Source of the DNA: Promethearchaeota archaeon
GTDB lineage: Archaea; Asgardarchaeota; Lokiarchaeia; Sigyniarchaeales; SOKP01
NCBI GenBank assembly: GCA_016840085.1
Contig: JAEOTA010000018.1
Span: 62,001 to 126,000 of the forward strand
Direction: 5' to 3'
DNA: 64,000 nt
Shown: piece after piece, positions 59,190 through 60,230 of the stretch
Position numbering within the stretch: position 1 is the stretch's first letter
Layout of the letters: each line of letters starts with the position of its first letter
The notes under the pieces: model-generated
Database searches by the model: none
What the model was told of the DNA's origin: nothing
What the model saw: only the letters and a program-made list of their open reading frames with translations
Position numbers and translations under genes: made by a program

Positions 59190-60230
59190 TCATAATATTG
59201 AGAATAAATACCAAGATAATAACATCGTTCCAATACCAAGAAAGATAGAAATAGGCAAACCAGGTAAAATTTTATTACGTTTCAATCCTGTAATCGTTAT
59301 TCCTGTCCCAATAATTATAGCAATTGAAGTTAAAACCATAACGAGTAAATTATTTGTCTGAACTAGTGCACTAGAAGTAAGCATGCTATAAAAAGCCAAA
59401 TCTCCAATTCCAATCTCTAATTTAGAGGTATCATAGGCATATTCACCACTTTTAATTTTTCCTTTTATTTCCTCTCCCGATAATACCTCTTCATCATTTG
59501 ATTGCGACGCAATATCAATTAATTGCTTAATAGGTCCATGTTTATAAAACACAGCAAAAATATCCCAACATGAAATCCCAATTAAGATAGCTAATGTAGT
59601 CCAGAGGGGCATTAACACACCCATGGATGCTCCAATTAATAATCCTATATATAATACGATAAAATTTTTAGTGTTAATTGATTTTGAAGTAAAATACCTA
59701 TAAATCATAACAATAGTGAAAATAGCTGTAAAGAAAATTAATTCAATATCTAATAAATAAAACAAATTAGCATTATTATAAAAAATTAAATACAATATAA
59801 TTTCACCAAAAAACCAAGTTTGGAAAAAGGCTACTAACCCAAAACCCACTCCAAAAATATACATTAAGATGCCTATTCCTTTTCTCTTTATTAAAAAGAT
59901 TATAATAAATGCTGTAAATGCTGCTATAGTTGTATAAATTAAACCGTTTAGAAGTCCACCAACGGCACCAAGTTCACTTTCAGAAAAATATCCACCATCA
60001 ATTTGTACCCCTGCTTCTATATAAGTTAAATAAGCTAAAATACCCGCTATTACCACAACAACTACTATAGGAAAGGGATATAACTTCCTTTTAATTCTAT
60101 AAGTCGGAAAGAAATGAGGAATAAAATCTTTTTGAATAACTTTGTCATCTGATTTATTTTCCTCATAAGAATCTTTAATTCTTTCTGTCTTTAACTCTAT
60201 ATCCTCTGAACTTTCAGAATTCTCTGCCAT
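59190..60230 (-). CDS. Presenilin/SPP-family GxGD intramembrane aspartyl protease homolog
   Basis: CWDIFAVFYKHGPIKQLIDIASQ (TM6 Asp), KLEIGIGDLAFYSML (GxGD), LPGLPISIFLGI (PAL-like). Confidence 0.85.
   Translation of the reverse strand: MAENSESSEDIELKTERIKDSYEENKSDDKVIQKDFIPHFFPTYRIKRKLYPFPIVVVVVIAGILAYLTYIEAGVQIDGGYFSESELGAVGGLLNGLIYTTIAAFTAFIIIFLIKRKGIGILMYIFGVGFGLVAFFQTWFFGEIILYLIFYNNANLFYLLDIELIFFTAIFTIVMIYRYFTSKSINTKNFIVLYIGLLIGASMGVLMPLWTTLAILIGISCWDIFAVFYKHGPIKQLIDIASQSNDEEVLSGEEIKGKIKSGEYAYDTSKLEIGIGDLAFYSMLTSSALVQTNNLLVMVLTSIAIIIGTGITITGLKRNKILPGLPISIFLGIGTMLLSWYLFSIL

Follow-up and report, generated by a model that had tools for sequence, protein, structure and literature searches.

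A presenilin-family intramembrane protease of an Asgard archaeon that probably acts without gamma-secretase partners

Eukaryotic presenilin (PF01080), represented by human PS1 and PS2, is the catalytic subunit of gamma-secretase. PS1 docks PEN-2 via the NF motif of TM4 and APH-1 via its FYI C-terminus (PMC7248309), while its beta2 strand (R377-L381) forms a hybrid sheet with the substrate (PMC10290658). Archaeal PSH (PF06550), such as the Methanoculleus mmPSH/MCMJR1 (PDB 4HYC/4HYG), is a single-protein enzyme and cleaves APP without cofactors (PMC2947513). The presence of the presenilin family in Asgard archaea is already known from a transporter survey of 2021 (PMC7997004). In the relevant passages, the survey mentions the Asgard homologues in passing and gives a transporter-class assignment only; they contain neither a tree nor a split by motifs, nor do they treat topology or look for partners. 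Among the open-access main texts searched, I found no further treatment of Asgard presenilin. As far as the searched literature shows, the motif split, the breadth of the family in Asgard, the orientation, the missing docking features, and the tree described here are new.

The window, namely the whole stretch of 64,000 nucleotides of Lokiarchaeia DNA analyzed in this study, contains an ORF of 346 amino acids with an ATG start and no internal stop (Table 1). The ORF check confirmed the peptides CWD(223)IFAVFYKHGPIKQLIDIASQSNDEE, KLEIGIGD(277)LAFYSML, and ILPGLPISIFLGI. I propose, with a probability of roughly 0.8, that the product of this gene is a genuine aspartyl intramembrane protease of the presenilin family (A22A type), acting without the gamma-secretase partners. 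PF01080 is the sole Pfam family matched by the protein (76.6 bits with a cut-off of 34.3, E=2e-21), and no NCBIfam model matches it. When the PDB was searched by phmmer with the window protein alone, the only meaningful matches were human presenilin-1 (E=7e-11) and presenilin-2 (E=7e-8). A profile built from five eukaryotic presenilins gave the window protein 59 bits, while the maximum was 6.7 bits for 1000 full shuffles and 2.6 bits for 1000 local shuffles, and the reversed protein scored -9.6 bits. Thus, these scores place the motif peptides far beyond chance. The same profile gave 54-67 bits for the Loki proteins (family f1), 15.9 bits for SPP, and less than 17 bits for PSH rows, except for two rows of family f35 at 27.8 and 20.8 bits. 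A PDB search with a profile made from 15 Asgard proteins matched human PS1 in one alignment at E=3.6e-37 and archaeal PSH at 5.8e-6. The identity of the window protein to PS1 is 58/268 overall, or about 22%. Across the end of TM6 and TM7-9, it is 37/105 to PS1, 21/98 to mmPSH, and 22/101 to SPP.

Table 1. Positions of the presenilin gene, its motifs and strands, and the neighboring protease gene in the window
Feature	Positions	Strand	Basis
Asgard presenilin, predicted nine-helix GxGD aspartyl intramembrane protease, 346 aa	59190..60230	(-)	ORF, PF01080, AlphaFold2
TYRIK (residues 43-47), conserved strand directly before TM1	60090..60104	(-)	DSSP strand in two models
Catalytic Asp223, TM6, WD motif (Asp257 of human PS1)	59562..59564	(-)	invariant in alignment
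Gly232-Pro233, presenilin-specific GP insertion after TM6 Asp	59532..59537	(-)	alignment columns
Hydrophilic loop between TM6 and TM7 (approximately residues 238-269), shorter than in human PS1	59424..59519	(-)	pLDDT <50 at residues 243-268
KLEIG (residues 270-274), strand before TM7, at PS1 beta2 position	59409..59423	(-)	strand in both models
GIGD (residues 274-277), catalytic Asp277 (Asp385 of human PS1), then LAFYS	59400..59411	(-)	G-x-G-D invariant
PGLP (residues 323-326), presenilin PALP motif, then IS	59253..59264	(-)	P323, L325, P326, S328 invariant
Archaemetzincin (peptidase M54), divergent neighbor, HEIGH zinc motif	60380..61153	(+)	PF07998 77 bits; linked by position only

The original prediction, made from the sequence of the window, was that the residues around both catalytic aspartates are presenilin-like and that the GP-x-LxxxA extension after the TM6 aspartate looks more like presenilin than like generic archaeal homologs. 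Both points were borne out. The motifs at D223 and D277 are present, and all 50 aligned relatives keep both aspartates, both glycines of GxGD, and PxLP. This invariance argues for catalysis, so that the protein is probably a working protease. The GP pair is a two-residue insertion common to Asgard proteins (G in 49/49 and P in 48/49 rows) and eukaryotic presenilins (5/5), and its position is a gap in all aligned rows of PSH (17/17) and SPP (2/2). Four residues past the GxGD aspartate, Asgard proteins and presenilins have Tyr or Phe (Tyr281 in the window protein and Y in 5/5 eukaryotic presenilins), whereas every PSH and SPP row has Pro. Residues F280, Y281, and S282 of the window protein correspond to the F-Y-S of presenilin after GxGD. 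When TM9 was examined for PAL(P), the window protein was found to have PGLP, with Gly for Ala as in 41/49 Asgard rows. SPP and SPPL proteins have the aspartates, GxGD, and PAL in common with the window protein, but they differ in their opposite membrane orientation, the lack of GP, the Pro after GxGD, and a weak fold match (SPPL2a, PDB 9K93). The window protein shows neither the inverted orientation nor the QPAL motif nor the Pro after GxGD that are features of SPP (A22B).

An AlphaFold2 model was made with 50 Asgard sequences (pLDDT 78, pTM 0.75; low confidence in the N-tail and the TM6-TM7 loop). In a Foldseek search of the PDB with this model, the top 13 matches were to human PS1 as part of gamma-secretase (best TM 0.69-0.70, rmsd 3.5), followed by PSH (TM 0.52, rmsd 6.9) and SPPL2a (TM 0.51, rmsd 6.6). 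Thus, the fold search, one of the checks suggested with the original prediction, prefers PS1 over PSH and SPPL2a. The short loops of the window protein have five Lys and Arg residues on the cytosolic side and none on the other side, while the charge pattern of two SPPs is reversed (2.5 versus 7.5), matching their inverted orientation. The topology predicted from the model and the charge distribution has nine helices, and both the N-terminus and the TM6-TM7 loop face the cytosol, which is also the orientation of human presenilin. The window protein therefore resembles eukaryotic presenilin in its family profile, the Y/WD and GxGD aspartates, GP, FYS, and PxLP, and, by prediction, in its nine helices, N-in orientation, and fold. 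On the other hand, it differs from eukaryotic presenilin in having a short TM6-TM7 loop (44 amino acids for the whole segment versus a mean of about 142), a short C-terminus (6 residues past the TM9 reference point versus 17 in full-length eukaryotic presenilins), and an extra conserved strand before TM1, with no NF motif for PEN-2 and no partner subunits found.

Only two strands of at least three residues were found per model, namely TYRIK before TM1 and KLEIG before TM7 in the window protein, and TFRIK and KIELG at the same places in a Prometheoarchaeum relative. The T-[FY]-x-[IV]-x pattern of the TYRIK type was found in 63 of the 83 distinct relatives. Since the models have no other strands of this length, TYRIK is predicted to pair with the KLEIG strand before GxGD. 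The predicted place of TYRIK on the substrate edge, drawn from two models made by one method, suggests a role in gating or stabilization. In the proposed mechanism, Asp223 of TM6 and Asp277 of TM7 would make up an active site filled with water. The substrate would come in from the membrane as a helix and unwind at its cytosolic end, and the unwound end would line up as a strand along KLEIG, which corresponds to PS1 beta2, beside PGLP. The substrate would then be cut stepwise. TYRIK may pair with the same edge, gating or steadying the KLEIG edge until the substrate displaces it. Leftover membrane stubs and single-span proteins oriented like Notch or APP stubs would be the likely substrates.

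Are the partners of gamma-secretase present in Asgard archaea? The Pfam models of nicastrin, APH-1, and PEN-2 found none of them in the source genome. Among 99 Asgard genomes, no APH-1 was found above the cut-off in a search run without a positive control, and no PEN-2 either, although distant relatives could escape both models. For nicastrin, there were two weak matches above the cut-off in other Asgard genera, and neither is convincing. A PEN-2 match of 29 residues in a 281-aa frame (E=1e-3) was below the cut-off and was treated as chance. The genes neighboring the presenilin loci revealed no partner-like membrane protein. The position of PS1 N204 in the NF motif is not Asn in the window protein, and the Asgard rows do not conserve the Asn and mostly have a hydrophobic residue there. 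Since no partner genes were found and the docking features for PEN-2 and APH-1 are missing, the protein is best read as a stand-alone enzyme, although partners could dock some other way despite the loss of N204. By analogy with the APP cleavage by archaeal PSH alone, partner-free activity of the window protein would be plausible. Elsewhere in the window, a polytopic membrane protein of 338 amino acids (TM338; 55417-56433, minus strand) has no Pfam or NCBIfam match; it is encoded near the gene in only five related loci.

The presenilin type is common in Asgard. PF01080 matches were found in 166 of the 228 Asgard genomes (139 above the cut-off). Across 393 archaeal genomes, Asgard included, 14 non-Asgard genomes have a match, and all of these are weak. 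PF06550 has the opposite pattern among archaeal genomes. PF01080 also matches every one of the 50 proteins in alignment A2. The source genome (4.68 Mb, 89 contigs) has one presenilin gene, and the nearest named relatives of its product are from Lokiarchaeia/Lokiarchaeota MAGs (72-78% identity). No presenilin relative is encoded by viral contigs. A family of non-Asgard archaea (f44; L170, L197-L200) has GP and FYS/CYS, with PGLT instead of PALP. The Asgard family f28 (L161, L165-L169) consists of fast-evolving presenilin relatives with weak presenilin-profile scores and may be losing family features. A presenilin frame of 509 amino acids in another genome (L189, G043) has a large extra domain in its N-terminal part, ahead of a TM2-like region. 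The locus of 'Bathyarchaeota Bin_245' (L126, WJJB01000458.1) was rejected as a non-Asgard presenilin; its C-terminal 300 residues are identical to those of L182, whose genome belongs to the same order as that of the window, and this MAG is probably mislabelled.

The divergent archaemetzincin gene neighbors presenilin in 49 of the 80 compared loci, and it is the divergent neighbor in most Loki loci (L063-L136). It is also close and divergent in a Helarchaeota locus (L129), while it lies about 3 kb off, again divergent, in L126, L133, and L136. The two proteases may be functionally linked.

Two mixture-model trees that differed in their sampling placed eukaryotic presenilins, Asgard proteins, and f44 on one side and PSH and SPP on the other (support 97/91 and 99/91). 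The sequences of Arabidopsis, Drosophila, C. elegans, PS2, SPP, and SPPL3 were entered by hand and may deviate in single letters, and those of PS1 and mmPSH were from PDB alignments. The window protein is thus placed elsewhere than in an ordinary archaeal PSH clade. The profile scores, the diagnostic columns, the fold search, and the tree all agree with the original prediction of a greater closeness to eukaryotic presenilin than to generic archaeal homologs. Read as a peculiarity of this one protein, the same claim failed: the window protein lies in a well-supported Loki clade, away from eukaryotes, and is one ordinary Lokiarchaeia representative of a presenilin family that spans Asgard.

AU tests gave no support for the nesting of eukaryotic presenilin within Asgard (p-AU 0.14, 0.40, 0.37, and 0.29). 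A clade of eukaryotic presenilin and SPP was not rejected (p 0.086 and 0.098), and a clade of presenilin and PSH was weakly rejected (p 0.039). When the tree was reduced to PS1 and PS2 as the eukaryotic presenilins, with no SPP, PSH was separate at 100/98 with weak internal support, and the clade of presenilin and PSH was not rejected (p 0.37), which, with SPP left out, only means that all the other sequences may form the sister group of eukaryotic presenilin. It had been suggested that the gene may inform the origin of gamma-secretase. This holds as far as the presenilin side includes Asgard, but the nesting lacks AU support, the clade with SPP was not rejected, and the other subunits were not found.

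It is quite conceivable, at somewhat less than even odds, that the shared features are ancestral. The presenilin type would then be an old archaeal branch and eukaryotic presenilin would be a sister group of the Asgard set or would predate it, so that the link is one of retention and not of direct ancestry. The outcome of the AU tests is in line with this, as is f44, a non-Asgard family that joins the presenilin side with its GP and FYS/CYS. However, f44 lacks the second P of PALP and branches outside Asgard plus eukaryotes (93/80), and the presenilin type is rare outside Asgard.

It is improbable that the window protein is an inactive or non-proteolytic presenilin relative, for example a cation leak channel. 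PMC7997004 places the Asgard homologues in the presenilin Ca2+ leak channel class, citing dual protease/channel work on archaeal PSH, but the invariance of the Asp pair, the GxGD Gly pair, and PxLP in the 50 relatives is as expected under selection for catalysis. Even less credible is an ordinary archaeal PSH of the PF06550 type whose presenilin-like words arose by convergence. PSH and the window protein have the same overall chemistry (two aspartates, GxGD, and PxLP), fold class, single-protein nature, and inferred orientation, and a PSH profile gives the window protein 46 bits. Nevertheless, PF06550 does not match it at E<=10, and neither GP nor FYS was found by the same tools among the PSH family members (0/29). 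One Asgard genome (G042) has both types as separate genes, PSH occupies a separate branch, and the fold search favors PS1. The PSH reading is thus largely refuted by the split in the diagnostic columns. Recent transfer from a eukaryote into Lokiarchaeia, or contamination, as the human proteins being the nearest solved relatives might hint, is practically excluded by the matching gene in those 166 Asgard genomes, the archaeal neighbors conserved in dozens of Loki loci, and the low identity to PS1.

Returning to the presenilin-family protease acting alone, these results suggest that presenilin is a eukaryotic protein shared with Asgard. It may tentatively be imagined that an Asgard ancestor passed on to eukaryotes a self-gated presenilin working without partners, the archaeal TYRIK being a built-in gate on the substrate-binding edge, and that gamma-secretase came later with the PEN-2 docking motif, the C-terminal anchor for APH-1, and the long self-cleaved loop. 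The protein used so far in prokaryotic presenilin work is archaeal PSH, which is further from presenilin than the window protein in sequence, motifs, and fold search. As a single-chain model of the Alzheimer's-linked enzyme, Asgard presenilin comes closer than PSH. Since it is present across Asgard without recognizable partner subunits, it is also a good model of presenilin before gamma-secretase and makes that earlier role open to experiment.
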